NCBI GenBank assembly: GCA_017554615.1
Contig: JAFZHY010000006.1
Coordinates: 1 to 50,948 of the forward strand
DNA: 50,948 nucleotides
Origin: Clostridia bacterium
Lineage (GTDB): Bacteria; Bacillota; Clostridia; UMGS1840; HGM11507
Direction of reading: 5' to 3'
This document shows positions 37,151-50,948 of this stretch, one piece after another (the stretch's first letter is position 1; each line of letters begins with the position of its first letter). Below the pieces are notes generated by a model, which saw only the letters and a program-made list of their open reading frames with translations, did not search any database and was not told the DNA's origin. The translations under genes and the position numbers were made by a program.

Positions 37151-37187
37151 AAAGGTCTCTTGCGTTATTAAAACGCAAGAGACCTTT
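37151..37187. terminator. Terminator of the cohesin-dockerin-SLH operon
   Basis: The 16-base-pair stem AAAGGTCTCTTGCGTT with its complement at 37172-37187 begins 26 bases after the giant SLH gene stop on the minus strand. Confidence 0.85.
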
Positions 37188-37212: not shown

Positions 37213-40200
37213 TTATTTTACAAAATAGCGATAAATAAATGTTACAATCTGTGCACGTGTACAAGCATCATTAGGTCCAAAACTTGTAACTGACAATCCG
37301 TTAGTTACACTTTCGTTTACTGCCCATGCAACAGCACTATTGTAATATGAATCTGTATCAACATCTTCAAATGGAATATCTGACTCTGTCATAGGATTAC
37401 TTGCAAATCTCCATAAGAATGTTACAGACTGAGCACGGTTTACAATTCCTTCAGGATCAAAAGATGTTGCAGATATACCTGATGTAATTCCGTTTTCTAT
37501 TGCCCAGATTACTGCATCATAATAGTAAGAATTTGCATCTATGTCAGCAAATAAAACTTCAGTGGCAGTTGCCTTTGGACTTCCTGCTGCACGCCATAGG
37601 AATGTTACCATCTGCGCACGTGTACATTCATCATTTGGGGTGAATGAACTTTCACTTGTGCCACTTGTAATATTCTTTTCTGTTGCCCATTTTACTGCAT
37701 CATAGAAGTAATCTGACTTCTTAACATCACCAAAATTACCTAGTGTATCTTCATCATTATTATCTTCGCCTTCTTCATCAATTTTGACAAATTCAGCATC
37801 AATTGTAATTTCTGATTTTGGCATTATAAATGTATATTCATCACCTTTTAAAGTAAGAGATATCTCATTACCATTTTTATCAAGAACAACTAACTTGGAT
37901 AGTTTATATCCCTCGTCAGGAGTTACATTGATAACTACTGTTGAATTAGGTTTTGCATTTTTTACATTAGTGTTAATTTTACCACTATCAGTTTTTGCTA
38001 ATGAAACTTTATGAGTAGAAACTATACTTCCGCCTCCGCTTGAACGACGGACAGGTGTAGCTGTAACTTCATTTGATTCAGTTTGTCCGATGCTATTTAT
38101 AGCAACAACTTTAATTGCATACTGAACACCATTTTCAAGTTCAGTTATTTTATAACTTGTCTGTTCTGGAGTGATAACAGCAACTTCAACTTCGTCTACT
38201 TTGATTACGTAATTAATAATTTCCGAACCATTTGCGCTTACATCAAATGAAACTGTTAAGCTTTTATCTCCGGCAGAAACTATTGGATCTTTTATAAACG
38301 AAGGTGCTTCAGCAGGAATTGAAATAGTGTTTGAAACAACTAATCCTGTATAAGTATCGCCAATCGCAACTAACTGAACTGATATATCGCAACCTTTGTC
38401 AGCATTTGTAACAGTGTATGTTGTACCTGTTGCACCAAAAATTTCAGTACCATTGCGTAACCATACGATATTATAATGTTCGGATTCAGGTGCGTTTTCA
38501 ATTTCCAAAGTAATTTCTGTTGTTCCTGAAAGTGTAACAGTACCGGTCAATATACTTTTTCCAACAGTAAACACATTACTTTCTACTGAACCAGAATAGT
38601 TTCCTCCGTATGTTACTACAACTGTGATATTTGCGCCTATATCGTAAGATGTAACAGTATATGAAGAAGTAGTTGCTCCCTCTATATCATTGCCATTTCT
38701 CTTCCACTGATATGTGAACACTTCGCCAATTGGCTGTTGAGTAACTGTCAACACAGTATTTTCCAATATTTCAGGTTCACTTGTTGTAACTATAACACTA
38801 CCTGTGCAAGGAGCAGGATTTATCACATATGTCTTTACAAAAGAATCTGAATAGTTACCCTTACCTGAAATGGTAACTGATGAAGTTCCTGCATTAATAT
38901 TATTATCATATGTAATATCATAATCTGTATCTGTAGCAAGAACTATGTTACCCCAAGCAACACTAACCACAGGTTTGATTTCTTCTCCTGAGTATGTGTA
39001 TTCATCAAGAATACCTGAAACAATAAATTCATTTTCTACTAAAGGTTTTGGTGTAATTGCAAATGTTTTTTCGACTACACCTGCATAGTTTCCTTTAGCT
39101 GTAACTGTTATTGCAGCTGTTCCTACATTAACATTATTGCTGTATGCTACATCATAATCTGTTGTTGAAGAAAGTGTTTGTGATGTAACTACAGGTTTTA
39201 TTTCACTACCTGTAAACACTTTATCTTCACTGTCAAATTCAAAGTAGCTTTCAACTATATTCTTAGGAGAAATTACAAATGAAATTGCAAGTTCTTGAGA
39301 AGGTTCATAATTAGCATCTCCCATTTTAGATGCAGTAAGTGTAACTTCACCTATTTTAAGGATTTCTGCTTTCCAGATGTTGTTGTCAACAACATTAAGC
39401 TTAACAACACTGTTATCTGAGCTTACAAGTTTGTATAAACCTGTACCATTACCTCCACCAACTACAATATTAATATCATCGCCATATACTGCTGAGATAT
39501 TTTCGTTTGAACCATTAATTGTAATTGCACTCTGAAGTTGTTTTGTAATTTTTGCATTATTAAAGTTATATGTTTCAGGAATTGAGTAATTATCCTTATC
39601 TTCACCGCTAAGTATAAATCCGTTGATTGATACTGTATAGTCATCATCTACATCTTTTGCACTATACTCTGAAGCTGTTGCAGAAGTCATGTCAATATAA
39701 ACACTGTCATCACCCACAACTCCATCAACACCTAATGCACCACTAATTACACCCGGATCAGTTGTACCATCATATACTTTTGCAACTGAAACATCACCAT
39801 CAGATAGATTTAAAACTTTTTTAGCTATAGTAAGAATTGCAGTAGTTTCTCCGATATGTCCAGGAATTTGTGGATTTAGGCTATCAGGTGTATTATCTTC
39901 ATAATGTGCCTTTATACCATACTTACCAGCATTAACTGGTTTTACATCAGAAGTAGGATACTCTGTTCCTTCAATACCTGTATATGTATAAGTCCATGTA
40001 TATCCACTTGATGGCTGATTTGAATAACTGCCTGCAACTGTATATGCATCTCCATATACAGTATTCACATCATTAAGAGTAATTTCTACTGTAGATTTGT
40101 TTTTAAATTCAAAGTTTATTACAACATCTGTATCGTTAAAGTTATTTGTTGAAACTGCAACAACTACTGAATCAGTAACATCTGCTGCCTGTGGGGTTGG

Positions 40201-42822
40201 AACGACAACTTTAAGAATATCTCCATCAATACCAACTCCATTTTTCTTAACATAAGTGCCTTCTTCCTTAACTGAATATGTAACGGCACCGGCGTCGGAA
40301 GGAATATCATTGATAATTGTGCTAAGATTGAAAGAATATTCTTTCTGACCTTGAACTACATTTAATGAAAGTAATGTCTGCGCATCAGATGGCATAAGCA
40401 CTGGAGAATCAGCTTTGGTTATTTTTCCGTTTGCCACAACAGTTTGTGATTTCAAAGTGTAGTTCTTTACTGAATCTTTAAGTGCAACTGTAACATTAAC
40501 ATTTGCGTTTTCTGATGCATTTTTATCTTCATATACTGCACTTACAATATCATAGTCAACGCCTTTTTGTAGTGTATCGCTACCCTTTAAGCCATCGAAA
40601 GAAACACTAACAACTGAAGCATCGTTTGTTTGTGCATTATATTTCTTATCTGCAACTACTGCTGATTTTAATTCAATTTCTGCAGGTGTAATATTCCAGT
40701 ATCCGTATGCAACTCCTGTGTAGTTTCCTGTTCCTTCCACTGCAATTATATACGCATCATCGCTTACATCTTTTGCAGAAACAGTTGAATTCTGAATATC
40801 TTCCAATATAATATATCCATCTTCTGATACTCCATAAACATTTGTTACTTCAGGTGTAACAAGACTGCCTGTATATGGTACGGTTATTGGATTAGATGAA
40901 TCTGTCTCTACTGCATCCCCTGCCCCAAATTTTAGAGAAACTTTTGCTCCTTCAATAGATTTAGGGTTTATAATAACAATAAAATCATTTTGAGCTTTAT
41001 TATCCTTATCTTCGTATGCAACAGATACAGTATAAGTTCCCGCATCTAAAATTATATTATTTTGTTCTCCGTTTATTTTAATGGTTTGTGCTTCGCCAAG
41101 AGGAGAACCTGCCATAGTTGACGCAGCAAACATATTAGCAGAAAGAGTATAGCCTTCCTCGTTATATGTGCCAACAAATGTTTCTCCATCTTTACTCAAA
41201 CCGTTTGGTAGGTTTTTCCAAGAAATTATACCGGCATCTTTCCCTGTAACATTAACCACAACTGAGCCTTTATAATCTTTGTAATTATCCATATCAGTTG
41301 CTTTATAATAAAGGGTTACTCTTTGTCCTTCACCAGTATATTCTGCGGTAATCTGACTAGTTAATGATGCAGGTTGTTCGCATAAAGCATCTGTATACCA
41401 GGAAATTTTCGCAGATACATTTTCGTTGTTTATCCCTGTAACATTTTCCTGAGAAGGAAGTTCGGCATATGTTGTTGTGTATTTTTTTGTCATTTCATTA
41501 ATTCCGTTTACAATCTCAGCTTTATTGATTATCCACGAAATCTGTATATCATTTGTACTGCCATTTTCCCAGACAGTATTATCCTTATCTTTTAACGATG
41601 CAGTTGCAGTATATGTTTTTGCATCCTTACCGCTTGTTTCACCTGTTATTAAAACATAATCATCATCAGGAACTTCAGAATATTCAAAGGTCTGAACTTC
41701 TCCTGTATATGTGATAACATCACTTGAAGCAACTGGCTTTGTAATTTCTAATGGTTCAACTGTAATCTCCTGAGTTGTTGTTTTATTACCGTATGCAACT
41801 GTCCAGCTTGTATCTACAACTGTAAGATATGTATCTGTATCAATAACACATTGAGCTGTTACATCTTCCGTTGCTCCGCTTTCGTATGTCGCAGTTACCA
41901 CCATACCTGTTTTATCAAACTTCTCAAACGCTATGTAGTTAACTTTTGTCGGTGGAGTTGTAACAGTAATATAGTCTATACTGTCAAGAACTGTTACATT
42001 GAAAACGCAAGTACAGTCATTATATTTTGCAGTTAATATGTTTTTGCCAACTTGAAGTCCCATTTCAGGAATGAAAATTTCAAAATCTTCCCACTCACTG
42101 TCTCCCTGTGTATAAGAAACACTTTCGCCAGAATCATTTATATATACGAAAGACTGAACCATCTCTTTAATATCTTCAACAGAACTATCTGTATAAATAT
42201 TTCCTGATACTTCGCCAACTGAGATTGCAGGAGCCTGAACAACTGTAAATTGTCCTGCTTTTCCTCCGTTAACATTTCCGTCAATTACATATGTATTTTC
42301 TTTACCTGATATGCCTGTTGTTTCTACTAAACATATATTTCTTAAATCAGTTTCTGTAAGATCTGTTTTTGCAGTTAGAAATAATTTAAACAATGTTCCA
42401 GATGTAACAACCTGACCTTTTTTTATAATACCACCATTTGCAAGGCCCTGTACAAGTGCAACGCCATCGCCATAAGTTGTAGTAAGCTGCGACGGAGTAT
42501 TAAGCACACCTTCATAACTTCCTTCATCTCCGTAAGAGAATTCAACTTTATCAGGGTCATAACCTATCAAAAGATTATATCCTTGCATACTGTCATCTGC
42601 AACTGAAGGGTTGCCTATGTAATTTACATATAAACAGAAATTTTCATTTGCAGCAACTTCAGTTATCTTTTCAGTTTCTTCCTCGTTGTAATATTCAAAT
42701 GTAAAATATAGTGTTTTGCCGTTATCACCATCTGCAACATTAGCTGCGAAACCAGTTGTCATTCCCATTAACATTGAAACAGATAAAATCAACGCAAGCA
42801 CTTTTTTCATAATCTGGCTCAT
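37213..42822 (-). CDS. Giant secreted surface protein: cohesin-like domain, Ig-like/YDG-type repeats, FN3, three SLH domains
   Basis: The 1869-residue protein has a signal peptide (MSQIMKKVLALILSVSML, cleaved near AANV). Residues about 30-195 look cohesin-like (GYNLLIGYDPDKVEFS, GTLFKLFLTAKTDL). Residues about 200-1370 carry many Ig-like units with NYSG/NYAG-type motifs, resembling YDG/MBG/Big repeats. Two further Ig-like units (about 1380-1510, YQWKRNGNDIEGA), an FN3 domain (about 1510-1600), an InlB-like B-repeat (about 1602-1680) and three SLH domains (1697-1869, TRAQ motifs) follow. It is probably an S-layer-linked scaffold or adhesin. The ATG at 42822 follows AAGGAGG; it is the last gene of a three-gene operon. 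Confidence 0.88.
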   Translation of the reverse strand: MSQIMKKVLALILSVSMLMGMTTGFAANVADGDNGKTLYFTFEYYNEEETEKITEVAANENFCLYVNYIGNPSVADDSMQGYNLLIGYDPDKVEFSYGDEGSYEGVLNTPSQLTTTYGDGVALVQGLANGGIIKKGQVVTSGTLFKLFLTAKTDLTETDLRNICLVETTGISGKENTYVIDGNVNGGKAGQFTVVQAPAISVGEVSGNIYTDSSVEDIKEMVQSFVYINDSGESVSYTQGDSEWEDFEIFIPEMGLQVGKNILTAKYNDCTCVFNVTVLDSIDYITVTTPPTKVNYIAFEKFDKTGMVVTATYESGATEDVTAQCVIDTDTYLTVVDTSWTVAYGNKTTTQEITVEPLEITKPVASSDVITYTGEVQTFEYSEVPDDDYVLITGETSGKDAKTYTATASLKDKDNTVWENGSTNDIQISWIINKAEIVNGINEMTKKYTTTYAELPSQENVTGINNENVSAKISWYTDALCEQPASLTSQITAEYTGEGQRVTLYYKATDMDNYKDYKGSVVVNVTGKDAGIISWKNLPNGLSKDGETFVGTYNEEGYTLSANMFAASTMAGSPLGEAQTIKINGEQNNIILDAGTYTVSVAYEDKDNKAQNDFIVIINPKSIEGAKVSLKFGAGDAVETDSSNPITVPYTGSLVTPEVTNVYGVSEDGYIILEDIQNSTVSAKDVSDDAYIIAVEGTGNYTGVAYGYWNITPAEIELKSAVVADKKYNAQTNDASVVSVSFDGLKGSDTLQKGVDYDIVSAVYEDKNASENANVNVTVALKDSVKNYTLKSQTVVANGKITKADSPVLMPSDAQTLLSLNVVQGQKEYSFNLSTIINDIPSDAGAVTYSVKEEGTYVKKNGVGIDGDILKVVVPTPQAADVTDSVVVAVSTNNFNDTDVVINFEFKNKSTVEITLNDVNTVYGDAYTVAGSYSNQPSSGYTWTYTYTGIEGTEYPTSDVKPVNAGKYGIKAHYEDNTPDSLNPQIPGHIGETTAILTIAKKVLNLSDGDVSVAKVYDGTTDPGVISGALGVDGVVGDDSVYIDMTSATASEYSAKDVDDDYTVSINGFILSGEDKDNYSIPETYNFNNAKITKQLQSAITINGSNENISAVYGDDINIVVGGGNGTGLYKLVSSDNSVVKLNVVDNNIWKAEILKIGEVTLTASKMGDANYEPSQELAISFVISPKNIVESYFEFDSEDKVFTGSEIKPVVTSQTLSSTTDYDVAYSNNVNVGTAAITVTAKGNYAGVVEKTFAITPKPLVENEFIVSGILDEYTYSGEEIKPVVSVAWGNIVLATDTDYDITYDNNINAGTSSVTISGKGNYSDSFVKTYVINPAPCTGSVIVTTSEPEILENTVLTVTQQPIGEVFTYQWKRNGNDIEGATTSSYTVTSYDIGANITVVVTYGGNYSGSVESNVFTVGKSILTGTVTLSGTTEITLEIENAPESEHYNIVWLRNGTEIFGATGTTYTVTNADKGCDISVQLVAIGDTYTGLVVSNTISIPAEAPSFIKDPIVSAGDKSLTVSFDVSANGSEIINYVIKVDEVEVAVITPEQTSYKITELENGVQYAIKVVAINSIGQTESNEVTATPVRRSSGGGSIVSTHKVSLAKTDSGKINTNVKNAKPNSTVVINVTPDEGYKLSKLVVLDKNGNEISLTLKGDEYTFIMPKSEITIDAEFVKIDEEGEDNNDEDTLGNFGDVKKSDYFYDAVKWATEKNITSGTSESSFTPNDECTRAQMVTFLWRAAGSPKATATEVLFADIDANSYYYDAVIWAIENGITSGISATSFDPEGIVNRAQSVTFLWRFASNPMTESDIPFEDVDTDSYYNSAVAWAVNESVTNGLSVTSFGPNDACTRAQIVTFIYRYFVK

Positions 42823-42837: not shown

Positions 42838-43524
42838 TTATTTAAAAGAATTTATCTTTCCTGTACCATACTGTAAAATTAACAATGCATCTTTAACACC
42901 ACAAACACCATCACCATCAACATCTGCGGCAACTCTTTGCGCTTCAGTAGCAGGATACTTGCCCACACCTATCTGTAAAACAATCAACGCATCCTTAACA
43001 CCAAAGTTGCCATCATTATCTATGTCTCCCAATGTATATGCAGGCATTTCTACATCAGCAGCATAATTAAGGGGTATTTTAACAAGATCAGCTCCCTGCA
43101 TACTTGTTGATATATAAAGTGAGAGGTCAGTTGTATCAGTTGGTAATATAGGATAAACATTAAAGTTTATATTAGAACCTTCTGCTTCAACCTGGTCTAT
43201 GTAATAGATATCAGTATCTACTGTAGGTAAACCACTGCCCTCAACCATTATTACTCCGTAATATTCGCCTTCAACTGCTGCTTTATATGTTACTTCAAGT
43301 CTGTCTGAATTCATATACCACTTTTCGTCATCTTCATCAGCATCAAGATTCTTTAATGTAACACTAACCTCAGTATCTCCTTTAAATGGCTTTATTTCAA
43401 CATCATCATTCGTTCCAATGTCGTAAAAGCCATCTGCTTTAATTGTGTCAGCTGCCATTACCGAAACACAAGGAATGGCAATAACCAATAAAGCAAGGAC
43501 CATAATACAAATTAATTTTTTCAT
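42838..43524 (-). CDS. Secreted dockerin protein
   Basis: A 228-residue protein: signal peptide (about 1-24), a beta-rich module (25-160) with YYGVIMVEGSG and YYIDQVEAEGSN-type strands seen in other clostridial secreted proteins, and a type I-like dockerin (163-228). Two 12-residue calcium loops are clear: DIDNDGNFGVKD and DVDGDGVCGVKD, each followed by ALxxLQ. A dockerin would bind a cohesin on the cell surface, and both neighbours have cohesin-like domains. The N-terminal module has no recognised enzyme motif. It lies 23 bases after and 15 bases before its neighbours. Confidence 0.9.
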   Translation of the reverse strand: MKKLICIMVLALLVIAIPCVSVMAADTIKADGFYDIGTNDDVEIKPFKGDTEVSVTLKNLDADEDDEKWYMNSDRLEVTYKAAVEGEYYGVIMVEGSGLPTVDTDIYYIDQVEAEGSNINFNVYPILPTDTTDLSLYISTSMQGADLVKIPLNYAADVEMPAYTLGDIDNDGNFGVKDALIVLQIGVGKYPATEAQRVAADVDGDGVCGVKDALLILQYGTGKINSFK

Positions 43525-43547: not shown

Positions 43548-44771
43548 TTAATTTATGTCAAGTTGGTTAATTAATATTTTCGCCAACTGTGCACGGGTTG
43601 CAAACTCTTTTGGGCTCAATGTTTCCGGGCTGGTTCCTGATATCAGTTTATTGTATATTCCCCAATAAACCGAACTTTTTGCCCATTCAGATATATCGGT
43701 ACTGTCTTTAAATGTACTGTTGTATATAGGATAGAACTGAATTTCATTGCCAATTCCATCACCCGAATATCCATGCAATATCTTCATTGCTGCCTCACGG
43801 GTAATTGCTTCTTCGGGTTCAAAAGTTGTATCTGATGTTCCTTTTATATACCCGTTTGAAAACCCCCATTTGATTGCAGATATAAATTCCGGAATCTGTC
43901 CATCTGTATCCAAAAACGGAAGTTCAACATCAACTACAGGTCTTTCACACATTCTCCAGAGCACTGTAACAAACTGTGCACGAGTAACTTTTTCATCAGG
44001 ATTAAAGCAACCATTTGTATCACCTATAAACAAACCGAGTTTTGCTGCTTCAATAATATAAGATTCAGCATAATGTCCACTGATGTCAGGAAATGTATGT
44101 TCTGAGACAGTTTCTTTATCAATACTGTCTTCTTTATCATTTTTTTCAGGTTCTGTTTCCTGTTCTGCATCATCATATTCACCACCCGAAGACGGTTGTT
44201 CAGAAACAGAGGTGTCTTCAGAAGGCTCTTCATTAACTGCATCATCAGGCTTTACAATTATTTCATCCATTATATCCGGTTCATTATCGGGGTTTGTTGG
44301 CAAATCGGTATTTTGATAATCACCTGCAATAACAAATTGTATATCTTTATTATTCTCATCAGCAAAAACTATATCTTTTAGTTTAAATTCAAATGTTTCA
44401 ATATTTTCTTTTGCTGTAAATAGATAATGTGCTACAGGTCCATCTCCATTAAATGTTTTCAAAGAGGCAGCCGCAACAATCGCTCCACCGTCTCCTTCGG
44501 GGTTGGTTGCTGAAATGGCACCAGACAGACGTTCATCTATTATAACATCATCACATATCATAACATCGCTGTTATATGCCAACATAAACTGAACAGCACA
44601 AAATCCTGGATTATTAGAAATCTCTACCGATACTTCAAATTTTTCTCCTGCTTTTGGTAAATTATGCGGCACAGATAATTCAAATATCGCTGAGTCAGTC
44701 CCCGCACCAACAGGAATTACTGCTGATATTACAAAAAATATCAACAGACACATAATAAGATGTTTTTTCAC
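43548..44771 (-). CDS. Cohesin-like protein anchored by SLH domains
   Basis: A 407-residue secreted protein. After a signal peptide (about 1-23), residues 27-150 form a cohesin-like domain (PKAGEKFEVSVEISNNPG, FCAVQFMLAYNSDVM). Residues about 155-225 are an acidic Ser/Glu/Asp-rich linker. Three SLH domains (227-407; TRAQ, TREA, TRAQ) should bind pyruvylated cell-wall polymers. This is the layout of a minimal anchoring scaffoldin. The start is a GTG at 44771 after GGGGG. It is the first gene of the operon, behind a strong promoter. Confidence 0.88.
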   Translation of the reverse strand: MKKHLIMCLLIFFVISAVIPVGAGTDSAIFELSVPHNLPKAGEKFEVSVEISNNPGFCAVQFMLAYNSDVMICDDVIIDERLSGAISATNPEGDGGAIVAAASLKTFNGDGPVAHYLFTAKENIETFEFKLKDIVFADENNKDIQFVIAGDYQNTDLPTNPDNEPDIMDEIIVKPDDAVNEEPSEDTSVSEQPSSGGEYDDAEQETEPEKNDKEDSIDKETVSEHTFPDISGHYAESYIIEAAKLGLFIGDTNGCFNPDEKVTRAQFVTVLWRMCERPVVDVELPFLDTDGQIPEFISAIKWGFSNGYIKGTSDTTFEPEEAITREAAMKILHGYSGDGIGNEIQFYPIYNSTFKDSTDISEWAKSSVYWGIYNKLISGTSPETLSPKEFATRAQLAKILINQLDIN

Positions 44772-44811: not shown

Positions 44812-44841
44812 ATTTTACCATATAAATCCTTATATTGTCAA
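44812..44841 (-). promoter_or_regulatory. Promoter of the cohesin-dockerin-SLH operon
   Basis: A perfect TTGACA (44836-44841), an 18-base spacer and an extended -10 TGG-TAAAAT (44812-44817) lie on the minus strand, 41 bases before the GTG. It is inside the otherwise decayed gap after the giant LRR gene. Confidence 0.75.
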
Positions 44842-44874: not shown

Positions 44875-45000
44875 TTAAATTTTGTTTTTCTTTGCCGCAA
44901 ATGCACCATACCCAAAACTGGTTACACTATCAGGAATAATTATACTTTTAAGACTTTCACAGAGATAAAAAATGCAAGATGATTGTTCTGTGTTTTCATC
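44875..45000 (-). pseudogene. Decayed BspA-like LRR fragment
   Basis: On the minus strand, in a different frame from the upstream giant gene and directly after its stop, 41 codons read CESLKSIIIPDSVTSFGYGAFAA and then a stop (44875-44877). This matches the unit SLTNITIPDSVTSIGDYAF repeated in the upstream gene. No ribosome site or start codon is evident, so it is a remnant of an LRR gene, not a working protein. Confidence 0.65.
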
Positions 45001-48000
45001 TACTTATTTATAACAATACTTTCTGTCCTATAACCGTATTCAGTATATGAGCTATCACTTGTCAGACGAATTTTAACAGTATTTCCAGGAATTGTAATTG
45101 TTTGTCCTGCAAGTTCCCTTCCGCTATATCTACCAATTTGATTGTCATTAGAATCATAAATGTAAATATAATCATAACTACTTTCGGTTTCGGTATCATC
45201 TGAGAAAGTTACATCAATGCTGACACACTCACCATCGTACACATAGGTCTTTGTTTCATCCATGTCATTTGCATATGGATGTTCTGATTCCAAAACATCT
45301 TCAACCAAAACAGCTTCCACAATCTCTGTTTCAACAAATTTTGATAACGGTTTTAATGAAGAATTACCATCCCAATAGAAAACTTTAACATTGTAATCTT
45401 TATACCTTTCATCAACATCAAATATTTCTATAGTGTTTTCTATCTCATCAATTTCTACAGGCTTATCTTTTATATCCACAAGCCTTCCCTCATCGTAGAT
45501 AGCTAAGTATAGCGTACCCGCTTGGTCGATATAATTAAATTTGATTTTTACTGTTACTTTGTTGTTATGATACCAACAGTTTACAGATTTAATATTTGAG
45601 AGATTTCCGTCATAGCCAAATGTAATATTTGCATCTAACAAACAATTATTATCAGAACCTATTAAAATATCTTCCCATTCGCTTTCACTGCCACTGTAAT
45701 ATACATCTGTTAGACTATAACAGTAATCAAACGCATCATCTCCAATACTGGTTACGCTATCAGGGATAGTTATAGTTGTAAGACTTTCACAGCCATAAAA
45801 CGCATAATCTCCAATACTGGTTACACTATCAGGGATAGTTATATTTGTAAGACTTGTACAGGAATCAAACGTAGCATTCCCAATACTGGTTACACTATCT
45901 GGGATAGTTATATTTGTAAGACTTTCACAGCCATAAAACGCATAATCTCCAATACTGGTTACGCTATCAGGGATAGTTATAGTTGTAAGACTTTCACAGT
46001 AAAGAAACGCATAATCTCCAATACTGGTTACACTATCAGGTATAATAACTTCTGTTAAGTTTTCGTTATCTGCTAACGCAGTGGTTGAAATAATTTTAAC
46101 AGTATTCGGGATCGAATAACTATCACCTGTTTTCCCAGCAGGATATTTAACAAGTCTTGTTTTATTTTTATCAAACAGAACATTATCAACCACACAAAAA
46201 TGTTCATTTTCCTCAGAAACATTAATAGTTTTTAGAGAAGATAAATAACCCAATGCCCATTCGGATATACTCTCAATGCTGCTCGGCAAGGTTAATGCTG
46301 TTATATAAACACCATTCCATTCACACTCTTCAAAAGCATAATCTTCAATTCCAGCAACTGAATATTCGGCTAATGTTGCAGGAATCTCAAGTTCGGTATC
46401 TGTTCCATTATAGCTTAATATTACCGCTTTACCATTAGATAGTGCATATGTGTAGTCACCTTCTGTAAAACGCTCTCTTTCTGCATAGAAATAATCCCAA
46501 TCTCCTTCGCCAACTTCAGTTTTTTCTGTAGTGTTGTTTACAAAAGAAACATGTATATCATGTTCTTTATCATCTGCTTCAAAAGGAATAGAAAAATGTT
46601 TTTCAACCGTTCCAGCAGGTATCACTATCTCAAGAGTTTTTTCAATTTCACCATCATAATTTAATATATCTATAATGGCTACACAATTTATATATACATA
46701 ATCAAATTCAATAGTTCCTTCTACAGCAGAACCCGTAAAGTAAACATCACCAAATCCGCCAAAGACAACATCTTCACTATAGTCAAACACTTTTTCTGCG
46801 TTTATTAAAGCATCGTTGTTTTCGCCGATAGTGATTGCATTCCATTGTTCTTGTGTGCCTATGTAATTAACAGTTTCAAGATAGTCGCAACCATAAAAAG
46901 CGTTTTCTTCTATCTCTACAATTGTATCAGGAATAAGGATAGTTTCAAATTCGGCATACTCAAAGGCTGAATTTGAAATTTTTGTTATAGTATACCCATC
47001 AAGTGAAACTGGAATCCATACCTCATAATCATCATATTCATATCCAACAATTTCAGCAGTAGTGTCATCTATAGGGAAATAGTAGAACCCATTTGAGTAA
47101 TTTGGTTGAAGTTCTGCATAAAACTCTGTAGAAACGCTTGTACCTTTTGAGTTTTTGTCAGCTTCATTGTCATAGAACGACACTTTTATAATATGGTTTT
47201 TATTATCTCCTATGAAGGGAATCTCAAATTCCAAGGAATTTGAACCAACAGTTATTCCCTCAACAATGACTTTGTTTAAAGAAAGTTCCTCATTGTCTGT
47301 ATAATCAAATATTTCAATATAAGCAATACCGACTTCGGCAACTGTTTTGAATTCTAACCTTCCATAGATTGTATTGTTTTCATATTCATCAATTACAATA
47401 TTCTGGCAGATTATACTTCCATTTACATAGTAAACAATTTTGGAATAGTATTCAGCATCATTGCCTTTAGAAACCTCGTCCCAATCTTTTTGACCTCCAA
47501 CATAGTTGATTTTAACACTATTTGTTTCGCCAAACACATCTACGCCAATGTTGGCTACAGTAACAGGAATTGTGATTTCAGTTAAACTCTTAGACTCAGC
47601 AAAAGCTTCATCGCCAATACTTGTTAAATTTCCAGGAAGTTCAATGCTCTCTAAATCTTCACAGCCATAGAAGGATTTGTCCTCTATTTCAGTAACACTA
47701 TCCGGCAACACAATTCCTTCTATATTGGTCTGAGTAAATATTACGCTTGTAAGATAATCAAACACAGACAAATCAAGCTCACCCGAGACATTGAGATACT
47801 TAATTTCTATACCTGTAACATGATATTCTTCGTCAATAAGCTCCCATGTTATGCCATCCCATTCTCCCGGTACAGCTTCATTCCAATCTAGTAATTGTGC
47901 ATTTTCATTTGATTTCAAGAAGGAAACAAGAGTTTCTATTTCCTCACTATCAAAGTTTTCTGCAGAAGCATTTATTTTCTGATTGACAACATTTAGTACA

Positions 48001-50948
48001 GATAGCTCCATATCTTCTAATGAATCAATGGTATTGGCATTTAAATAATTGCCAGAACAACTTAACTCAATCAAGTTGTCGCAACCTGAAATCTGAATAC
48101 TTATAAGGTTTGAATTATCGCAAGATGCATATGTCAAGCTTTCGCAGTCAAATATTGACAAAGTCCCGATATTGTTATTATTTAAAGATAAAGTTTCTAA
48201 TTTTACTAATTCCGACAGATTGATTCCCGTATTGATTTCACAGTCAGAAAAGTCAATATCCGTCACATAATATGTATCACCAAATCTTTGCCAAGTAACA
48301 CCATAATATGTGCTTGGGTCATCAATATTCCAGCCAAGTTTATCTAAGTTATCTCCGCTTTGCGCTATCTCTTTTAAGATAGCTATATCGCTTTCGCAAA
48401 ACTCAAGTTCAGACAATAATTTTTGCGGATAAGCGCTAATAACAGCATCATTTTGTTCAAAACCTTTAAGCTCCTTGTAAAAATCAGAACCCTCTGAAAT
48501 ATTCAAATAGTTATTTGATATGTAAATTGTGTTTGACGCCGTATTGTTTGTTAAATCAAGCGTATAAATGCTATTATTTTGTAAATTCAGGTTTTCAAGT
48601 GCTGTACAAGAACTCAAATCAATGTTTGAAATCTCATTGTATGACAAATCTAAATTCGTTAAATTTGTGCAATCCGACAAAGTAACATTTGTTAATTGAT
48701 TAAATGGAGCCTTAAAGCTAGTTAAAGCCTCAAAATTGGACAAATCTATTTCTCCCGTCAGTTGCTTATATGAAAAATCAATTTCGGAAATATTGTTTCC
48801 ATTCCATTTGATACCTGTCCATGTTGAGATATCATCAATATCATAGCCGAGAAGAGATGAATTTTCACCGTTTTGCAAGAATGTTTTTATTGCGTTTACC
48901 TCTACCTCATCAGGCTCAGATGGAACGGTGTCTAAAGACATCAGTCTCAACCCATAAAGAGCCGGGAATATTTCTGAATCATATAATCCAAGTTCAATTG
49001 CCTTTTTATATGTAGAGGCACTATGAGCCTTATGAAAATACGGATTAAGCACATTACCATCTAAAAAGTATGCAGTATATGGAAAATACAGCTTGCTAAA
49101 ATAACTTTCCTCTGCCATTCTTGCTCCATATATACCCATTTTTACTTTAGAACTATCTTTGTATATGGCAACAGGCGCAAGATAATCTCTGAAGAATTTA
49201 TGAAGATTCATACTTCTCACAGCAACCAAATCTGTGGGGTCATAATAATAAATTGTACTTTCGTATGCATCCTCTGCTGTTGGAGCAACAAATCCTTCTG
49301 TATATTTGATAATCTCATTCAACATCGCCTGATTGAATGGTGTTTGCCACTCTTTTAATTCCGTGTTGCTGTTTATTGCATTTCTGAAATACCAATTAGT
49401 GTTGTAAAGATTTTCAGCACAAACATTATAGGTTATACCATGCTTGCCATATCCCCAACTTTCCAGCGGAACCTGGGGCACAAAGTCATCTGTAAAACAG
49501 AAATTATAGATATTGGTTGATGCTTTGGGTTCCAGCGTGGTATTAGGTGTTGCGTATGTATAAGCATAAACATCAGCAAAATTGTCATAATGATCATTAT
49601 AATACTGGGCAACAAGGTTAGCAACCGCTGCTCCTCTGCTGTGACCTGTAATAAACAAGATATCTTGTGTACCAGTCATATGGGAATTCATATAATCATC
49701 AAGGCGTGAAATGACATCTTCAGCAGCAAGGGCAAAGCTATACTCATCTTTTTGAGATGCATCATATTCCAAACCGGTAAAATCCATGTTACCCTTCCAT
49801 TCAACGCCATGGGTACCGCGTATTGTAACACATACAAGGTTTTTTGTTACTCCGTTTTGTTGAACAAACTTTCTGCCTATTACAAAGCTTGTATTATGTT
49901 CATTATCATCCCCATCGGTGCCCTCTCCCCAGTTCCAATGGCTGAAATCATCAAAGCCATAGTCCTTTTCCATTTTCTCCATCAGTTTTTTGTAACCGCT
50001 ATATGCCTTGTTTGACAAATCAATACCCATCAGGTTTAATTCTTCATTATAGGTGTTCTCGTCATAAGACCAATCATTAAAGACAACAGTTGCATTCTTG
50101 ATTGGCTCGTTTCCTGTTGCAATGCTGACTTTTTTCCATTTGCTTTGCGATGCACTGTAGCTGATTTTCTGCAGTGCTGTGCATCCCGAAAAAGCGTAGG
50201 ACTGAATTAGTTCTAAGCTTTTTGGTAGAGATATTCTTTCAAGTTCATTGCAGTTCTGGAATGCATATTCATCAATTTCAACAACACCATTAGGTACTGT
50301 TATGTTATTTAATGATATACATTCTGCAAACATATACGGAGATATTGTTTTAATATTGTTTGGAATATTCACAACCTTTAAATTCATACAGTTACTAAAT
50401 GCACCACTTCCTATGTGATTAACCGTTTCTGGAATTACAACTTTATAAAGCTGCGAACAGTCTGCGAATGCATAGTTACCAATCTGATTTACCTTTTCCG
50501 GCAGATATTCTGAAACCAAACCATCACAACCATAAAATGCATAGTCGCCTATTTTTGTAATATTTTTTCCATATTGAATTTCAACAAGATTTTCGCAATC
50601 AGCGAATGCATAATCACCAATGCTTGTTACATTATCACCGATAATAACCCTTTCTATTTCATTTTTGTATGTATACCAAACTGGTCGACTGGTTTCAGAA
50701 TAATTAGGCATGTTGCCATAGTAATTGATTGTTAGTGTTTTAGTCTGCTGATTATATTCAGGAACGAGAAGCCCGGAAGAATTACAATGTATCGTTGCAT
50801 CTAACAAACAATTATTATCAGAACCTATTAAAATATCTTCCCATTCGCTTTCACTGCCACTGTAATATACATCTGTTAGACTATGACAGTAATCAAACGC
50901 AGCACTTCCAATACTGGTTACGCTATCAGGGATAGTTATATTTGTAAG
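45000..50948 (-). CDS. Giant BspA-like LRR/class 3 lipase surface protein (partial, N-terminus off the right edge)
   Basis: The open frame runs 1982 codons from the right edge to the stop at 45000. A TTG at 50807 is only an internal codon, because LRR sequence continues upstream. Numbered from that TTG: BspA-type LRR_5 units (about 30-240), a class 3 lipase domain (about 255-480) with VTIRGT, Ser390 in GHSRG, Asp near 440 (FTDDFVP) and His near 456 (GKHG), a leucine-rich block (about 660-960), more LRR_5 units mixed with beta-rich modules, a tight 23-residue repeat array and a C-terminal CUB-like domain (about 1840-1935, YDYIYIYD). Probably cell-surface or secreted; the signal peptide is not visible. 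Confidence 0.85.
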   Translation of the reverse strand, partial: LTNITIPDSVTSIGSAAFDYCHSLTDVYYSGSESEWEDILIGSDNNCLLDATIHCNSSGLLVPEYNQQTKTLTINYYGNMPNYSETSRPVWYTYKNEIERVIIGDNVTSIGDYAFADCENLVEIQYGKNITKIGDYAFYGCDGLVSEYLPEKVNQIGNYAFADCSQLYKVVIPETVNHIGSGAFSNCMNLKVVNIPNNIKTISPYMFAECISLNNITVPNGVVEIDEYAFQNCNELERISLPKSLELIQSYAFSGCTALQKISYSASQSKWKKVSIATGNEPIKNATVVFNDWSYDENTYNEELNLMGIDLSNKAYSGYKKLMEKMEKDYGFDDFSHWNWGEGTDGDDNEHNTSFVIGRKFVQQNGVTKNLVCVTIRGTHGVEWKGNMDFTGLEYDASQKDEYSFALAAEDVISRLDDYMNSHMTGTQDILFITGHSRGAAVANLVAQYYNDHYDNFADVYAYTYATPNTTLEPKASTNIYNFCFTDDFVPQVPLESWGYGKHGITYNVCAENLYNTNWYFRNAINSNTELKEWQTPFNQAMLNEIIKYTEGFVAPTAEDAYESTIYYYDPTDLVAVRSMNLHKFFRDYLAPVAIYKDSSKVKMGIYGARMAEESYFSKLYFPYTAYFLDGNVLNPYFHKAHSASTYKKAIELGLYDSEIFPALYGLRLMSLDTVPSEPDEVEVNAIKTFLQNGENSSLLGYDIDDISTWTGIKWNGNNISEIDFSYKQLTGEIDLSNFEALTSFKAPFNQLTNVTLSDCTNLTNLDLSYNEISNIDLSSCTALENLNLQNNSIYTLDLTNNTASNTIYISNNYLNISEGSDFYKELKGFEQNDAVISAYPQKLLSELEFCESDIAILKEIAQSGDNLDKLGWNIDDPSTYYGVTWQRFGDTYYVTDIDFSDCEINTGINLSELVKLETLSLNNNNIGTLSIFDCESLTYASCDNSNLISIQISGCDNLIELSCSGNYLNANTIDSLEDMELSVLNVVNQKINASAENFDSEEIETLVSFLKSNENAQLLDWNEAVPGEWDGITWELIDEEYHVTGIEIKYLNVSGELDLSVFDYLTSVIFTQTNIEGIVLPDSVTEIEDKSFYGCEDLESIELPGNLTSIGDEAFAESKSLTEITIPVTVANIGVDVFGETNSVKINYVGGQKDWDEVSKGNDAEYYSKIVYYVNGSIICQNIVIDEYENNTIYGRLEFKTVAEVGIAYIEIFDYTDNEELSLNKVIVEGITVGSNSLEFEIPFIGDNKNHIIKVSFYDNEADKNSKGTSVSTEFYAELQPNYSNGFYYFPIDDTTAEIVGYEYDDYEVWIPVSLDGYTITKISNSAFEYAEFETILIPDTIVEIEENAFYGCDYLETVNYIGTQEQWNAITIGENNDALINAEKVFDYSEDVVFGGFGDVYFTGSAVEGTIEFDYVYINCVAIIDILNYDGEIEKTLEIVIPAGTVEKHFSIPFEADDKEHDIHVSFVNNTTEKTEVGEGDWDYFYAERERFTEGDYTYALSNGKAVILSYNGTDTELEIPATLAEYSVAGIEDYAFEECEWNGVYITALTLPSSIESISEWALGYLSSLKTINVSEENEHFCVVDNVLFDKNKTRLVKYPAGKTGDSYSIPNTVKIISTTALADNENLTEVIIPDSVTSIGDYAFLYCESLTTITIPDSVTSIGDYAFYGCESLTNITIPDSVTSIGNATFDSCTSLTNITIPDSVTSIGDYAFYGCESLTTITIPDSVTSIGDDAFDYCYSLTDVYYSGSESEWEDILIGSDNNCLLDANITFGYDGNLSNIKSVNCWYHNNKVTVKIKFNYIDQAGTLYLAIYDEGRLVDIKDKPVEIDEIENTIEIFDVDERYKDYNVKVFYWDGNSSLKPLSKFVETEIVEAVLVEDVLESEHPYANDMDETKTYVYDGECVSIDVTFSDDTETESSYDYIYIYDSNDNQIGRYSGRELAGQTITIPGNTVKIRLTSDSSYTEYGYRTESIVINK
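45631..45782. repeat. Copy A of a 152-base direct repeat in the giant LRR gene
   Basis: This segment matches 50797-50948 at 147 of 152 positions by eye. It encodes the unit SLTDVYYSGSESEWEDILIG and flanking LRR sequence. Confidence 0.85.
45721..46066 (-). repeat. 69-base tandem repeats encoding 23-residue LRR units
   Basis: The word CCAATACTGG recurs at 45742, 45811, 45880, 45949 and 46018, exactly 69 bases apart. Each unit encodes a form of ITIPDSVTSIGDYAFYGCE with few differences. Such identity points to recent tandem duplication or gene conversion within the gene. Confidence 0.85.
50797..50948. repeat. Copy B of the 152-base direct repeat, cut by the right edge
   Basis: The partner of 45631-45782 lies 5.17 kb away and probably continues beyond the window. 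The first 88 or so bases are identical; the five differences fall in the last 64. Confidence 0.85.

Follow-up and report, generated by a model that had tools for sequence, protein, structure and literature searches.

A three-gene operon in the window (the whole stretch of 50,948 nucleotides analysed here, corresponding to contig C6 of a Clostridia genome of 1,278,198 bp that is 98.69% complete) appears to encode a closed cohesin-dockerin system without enzymes that serves display on the cell wall, a reading to which we give a probability of about two in three. The first gene codes for a short cohesin-SLH anchor, the second for a small dockerin protein and the third for a stalked giant that probably carries a divergent cohesin. 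Because a second bacterial family has this set too, the enzyme-free operon of a gut bacterium probably works as a small device on the cell surface and is not a leftover. We infer the docking itself, the docking partner and the role of the N-terminal domain of the dockerin protein.

The initial annotation had described three genes headed by a strong promoter and closed by a terminator, all of which stands: ORF analysis returned the same coordinates and gaps of 23 and 15 nt between the three minus-strand frames (Table 1), the predicted promoter is the best site of the region, although shuffled sequences contain promoter-like sites at least as often, and a hairpin lies downstream of the giant. 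This hairpin is absent from the list of the consensus scanner because its T-run is short. A Shine-Dalgarno-like sequence is present for each gene, and all three proteins, which would thus be secreted, start with a signal-peptide-like stretch. Upstream of the operon (window 45000-50948, minus strand) lies a gene for another giant protein, in which a class 3 lipase domain accompanies BspA-type leucine-rich repeats; the gene is truncated by the contig end, and its last repeats are near-identical copies.

Table 1. Features of the cohesin-dockerin operon, in window positions.
Feature	Position	Strand	Basis
Sigma-70-like promoter, TTGACA-18-TAAAAT, extended TG	44812..44841	-	11/12, best in region
Gene 1, cohesin and three SLH domains, 407 aa, GTG start	43548..44771	-	ORF, Pfam
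Gene 1 cohesin domain, residues 31-146	44334..44681	-	Pfam PF00963
Gene 1, three SLH domains	43581..44096	-	Pfam; match to solved Sap SLH structures
Gene 2, dockerin protein, 228 aa, signal-peptide-like start	42838..43524	-	ORF, Pfam
Gene 2 N-terminal domain, residues about 25-160	43045..43452	-	no Pfam family
Gene 2 type I dockerin, two EF-like loops DIDNDGNFGVKD and DVDGDGVCGVKD	42871..43032	-	profiles
Gene 3, giant, 1869 aa, signal-peptide-like start	37213..42822	-	ORF, Pfam
Gene 3 probable divergent cohesin domain	42253..42675	-	sub-threshold Pfam, structural matches
Gene 3, three SLH domains	37249..37734	-	Pfam
Intrinsic terminator	37151..37187	-	perfect 16-bp hairpin stem, -25.5 kcal/mol

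The assignment of the gene 1 cohesin is secure, with 31.9 bits against PF00963 (curated cut-off 24.1), an E-value of 4e-12 with a leave-out HMM built without the window sequences, and an hhalign probability of 98.3% against reference cohesins from other genomes. The dockerin of gene 2 is secure too, with intact calcium ligands: Dockerin_1 (PF00404, cut-off 22.9) narrowly missed the cut-off in the protein scan with 20.7 bits and passed it in the genome scan with 24.1 bits, the leave-out HMM gave an E-value of 2.5e-20, and both loops carry Asp at calcium positions 1, 3, 5 and 12. With the leave-out HMMs, these two domains and the gene 3 cohesin each outscored all 600 shuffled controls. Gene 3 itself combines an N-terminal cohesin-like region, a long stalk of Ig-like, YDG and fn3 domains, a Flg_new_2 domain and the three SLH domains. 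Its cohesin scored 17.7 bits against PF00963 (E 0.0028 in a search of one genome), below the cut-off of 24.1, the leave-out HMM gave only 0.048, and hhalign, at only 25%, did not confirm it. An AlphaFold2 model from a two-sequence alignment was of low confidence (mean pLDDT 50), and Foldseek ranks 1-42 for this model in the PDB were all cohesins. With the same low-confidence model, VIA-align placed a cohesin of C. perfringens first (Z 8.7, rmsd 3.5, 121 residues aligned) and streptococcal adhesin folds shortly after it (Z about 8). Profile and model taken together make a divergent cohesin probable, and we hold this with moderate confidence. The cohesin and SLH domains of the first protein, the dockerin of the second and the cohesin-like start and SLH domains of the giant, as initially annotated, are retained, and whatever else in that reading could be checked by computation was borne out as well.

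Besides the divergence of the gene 3 cohesin, a feature that the initial annotation had not described is the N-terminal domain of gene 2, about 135 residues long and 44% identical to its counterpart in the one orthologue found (see below). It is probably an Ig-like beta-sandwich, as suggested by an AlphaFold2 model from a two-sequence alignment in which the domain is all-beta (pLDDT 46); the PDB matches of this low-confidence model are generic Ig domains, from which no function was drawn. Pfam recognised no catalytic domain in the protein. A kinship with the N-terminal domains of other small dockerin proteins through a shared Y-I-D/N-Q motif is unproven and was rejected because the window sequence gave an E-value of 0.12 and a shuffled control 0.021.

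Searches of the whole genome with Pfam and with wider custom profiles, in which hits as weak as E 10 were considered, found exactly one dockerin and two cohesins, all three within the operon. The genome-wide dockerin search that had been proposed thus returned the operon's own dockerin, for which the cell offers no detectable cohesin to bind other than those encoded beside it. The earlier observation that no glycoside hydrolase is attached also holds at the scale of the genome, because the only detectable dockerin sits on the 228-aa protein lacking a recognised catalytic domain; the whole-genome profile search of this 98.69% complete assembly found no dockerin-bearing glycoside hydrolase. Nor was a multi-cohesin scaffoldin found genome-wide, the two cohesins being on separate proteins, and the system is therefore not a cellulosome. 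SLH anchoring needs the CsaB pyruvyl transferase. The genome contains 38 SLH matches and a CsaB equivalog (240 bits, cut-off 213.1), which makes wall anchoring through SLH domains plausible; these genes indicate anchoring to a wall polymer, and not a crystalline S-layer.

The two halves of the gene 2 dockerin carry the same residues, GVK, at recognition positions 9-11. Internal symmetry of this kind is tied to dual-binding-mode dockerins, and several non-cellulosomal dockerins are single-mode (PMC5429695). In 11 of 13 small dockerins the loop residues 9-11 are identical between halves; over this set, the recognition residues are 95% identical within a protein and 18% identical from one protein to another (permutation p 1e-5), with 11 different codes among the 13 proteins and GVK absent from the others sampled. 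The gene 2 dockerin thus bears the sequence signature of a dual-face dockerin, while a recent duplication within the gene, or gene conversion, could likewise keep its halves similar. Both the calcium positions and a code that changes between proteins argue for selection on a putative binding surface.

Among 391 genomes of the class Clostridia, a full-length orthologue of gene 2 was found in a single one (G094), at 42% identity and with a stronger dockerin score (41.5 bits in Pfam). This is the Clostridia MAG RGIG1947 (JAFQMF010000009.1), from goat cecum, whose family differs from that of the window. Its dockerin shows NAS at the recognition positions of both loops, in place of GVK. A cohesin-SLH gene 52% identical to gene 1 precedes the dockerin gene there, and a counterpart of gene 3 follows it, its N-terminus being 31% identical over 232 columns before the contig ends within the gene. 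Gene order is the same, with gaps of 11 and 3 nt, and TTGACA-17-TATAAT can be read from the sequence at the place equivalent to that of the window's promoter. The two operons have no flanking genes in common, so the trio travels or is maintained as a unit. The cohesins of genes 1 and 3 are very different from each other in sequence and each groups with its own counterpart in G094, hence they were already distinct before the window and G094 lineages split. No orthologue of the gene 1 cohesin was found in G001-G003, the closest relatives (same genus or family); horizontal transfer or differential loss would either explain this patchy distribution of the trio. G094 also encodes a second 407-aa cohesin-SLH protein (L117:5647-6870, on G094:C18), beside which no dockerin gene was found.

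Proximity of dockerins and cohesins extends beyond this trio. In 17 genomes, chosen for dockerin presence or kinship and not for adjacency, a cohesin was found no more than 3 kb away for 29 of 67 dockerins, compared to 0.74 expected, a count that includes some fusions in one reading frame. A small dockerin gene adjoins a cohesin-SLH gene in G155, G274, G024, G238, G256, G379 and G164, which represent several genera.

In the mechanism that we propose, the short (407 aa) and the long-stalked (1869 aa) anchors would hold the wall polymer by their SLH domains, each presenting one cohesin at a differing distance from the wall. Secreted as well, the small dockerin protein would plug into one or either cohesin with calcium, its N-terminal beta-domain being shown near the wall on the short anchor or farther out on the stalked one. 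This domain would most likely attach to something, be it a glycan, another cell or a surface, or else form a structural brace similar to an X-module. One dockerin may not fit both cohesins, given how different these are.

Two other arrangements of functional parts have to be weighed against this display device. The two identical faces of the dockerin might hold both anchors at once and build a surface lattice that carries no cargo. The match in number between the two like faces of the only dockerin and the two cohesins, each on its own anchored protein, could suggest this. Two-cohesin sets also surround one dockerin in G155 (cohesin-SLH proteins of 1043 and 436 aa) and in G379 (a 233-aa cohesin protein and a 406-aa cohesin-SLH protein). 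However, the published dual-mode faces are described as alternative orientations, 180 degrees apart, on one cohesin (PMC5429695), which amounts to 1:1 binding, and the dissimilarity of the two cohesins also argues against such a bridge, which we consider improbable. Alternatively, the system could be open, with the cohesins catching dockerin proteins that cellulosome producers nearby release, or with the dockerin docking on cohesins of other species, so that the operon would serve interaction between cells. Consistent with this, the host genome has no enzyme with a dockerin, relatives of the same genus possess many large dockerin proteins, and the goat-cecum source of the G094 operon suggests fibre-rich communities. 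Such exchange is nevertheless improbable too, as the cohesins have next to them a cognate dockerin that is conserved along with them and shares its GVK residues with no other small dockerin sampled.

The remaining alternatives deny the operon its function or its binding. The host genome, at 1.28 Mb compared to 2.2-3.0 Mb in three sampled family members, could be shrinking and the operon a non-functional leftover of a reduced cellulosome; the weak domain scores (Dockerin_1 at the cut-off, the gene 3 cohesin below it) would agree with such decay. On the contrary, reading frames, Shine-Dalgarno-like sites, promoter and terminator are all intact, calcium ligands and twofold recognition residues are retained, and genes 1 and 2 are conserved at 42-52% identity in another family, which makes a relic very unlikely. 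Still less credible is a mere likeness of folds, in which the anchors would be SLH adhesins capped by a cohesin-like domain, the small secreted protein would be EF-hand-like, and the two would not bind each other. The sub-threshold Pfam score of the gene 3 cohesin and the adhesin Ig folds found near cohesins in structural comparison (Z about 8) leave some room for it, whereas the clear leave-out results for the gene 1 cohesin and the dockerin, the 41.5 bits of the G094 dockerin and co-localisation far over chance speak against it. A bolder extension of the display device, which we regard as unlikely, would make the operon a member of a class that is common throughout gut Clostridia and is no branch of the cellulosome; its closed surface devices would lack enzymes, and in them one dual-faced dockerin would serve a short and a long SLH anchor and maybe join both to build or cross-link a wall structure.

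The system belongs with the non-cellulosomal cohesin-dockerin modules and the SLH-anchoring scaffoldins. SdbA and OlpA are single-cohesin SLH-anchoring scaffoldins. Scaffoldins of this class combine cohesin and SLH domains on one secreted protein (PMC11557425). As in the anchoring scaffoldins of Acetivibrio/Clostridium thermocellum, a cohesin-SLH protein would tether a dockerin-bearing partner to the wall. Here, however, this partner is small and has no recognised enzyme, carbohydrate-binding module or multi-cohesin scaffoldin, the genome contains one dockerin, and anchor and partner share one operon. Non-cellulosomal modules (Peer et al., 2009, as cited in PMC9012536), such as those of ANME archaea and the two-protein complex of Clostridium perfringens, similarly place cohesin-dockerin pairs outside cellulose degradation. 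The operon differs from them by cohesins borne on SLH proteins and by a closed set of one dockerin and two cohesins that is syntenic across families; moreover, the C. perfringens pair is single-binding-mode (PMC5429695), whereas the dockerin of the operon keeps its twofold symmetry. An Ig-like domain before a C-terminal dockerin, a fold that here comes from a low-confidence model, also recalls the X-module-dockerin dyads (type II XDoc of CipA and the XDoc of R. flavefaciens CttA). No sequence link of the gene 2 domain to X-modules was found, and this domain makes up most of its protein instead of forming the tail of a scaffoldin.

We found no description of a closed, enzyme-free operon with one plug and two anchors in the accessible literature, from which subscription journals are largely excepted. 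With one plug and two sockets in one operon, the system would rank among the smallest self-contained cohesin-dockerin systems and would show a cohesin-dockerin pair used for surface display without enzyme cargo. Its closed nature means that three purified domains can answer the question of the partner. The twofold symmetry of the dockerin, kept here though the anchors carry single cohesins, puts to the test a proposal made for crowded scaffoldins, namely that such symmetry relieves steric clashes. Protein engineering might likewise draw on the recognition sets, which are small and orthogonal (11 codes in 13 proteins).

Other arrangements of dockerins were observed in the same survey. G001, which belongs to the genus of the window, harbors three paralogous pairs (L100:4934-6455, L101:8588-10327 and L110:6803-8331), in each of which a cohesin-like protein (about 320-340 aa) is accompanied by a small dockerin protein (about 180-200 aa). 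The same genome presents a run of five large dockerin proteins of about 1100-1440 aa (L108 and L109, G001:C23:39000-77000), which adjoins a dockerin-SLH protein and a large SLH protein. A three-gene chain in G164 (L098:9216-12236, on G164:C153) encodes a dockerin protein, a 230-aa adaptor with cohesin and dockerin and a cohesin-SLH anchor, and resembles a minimal three-step assembly without enzymes.
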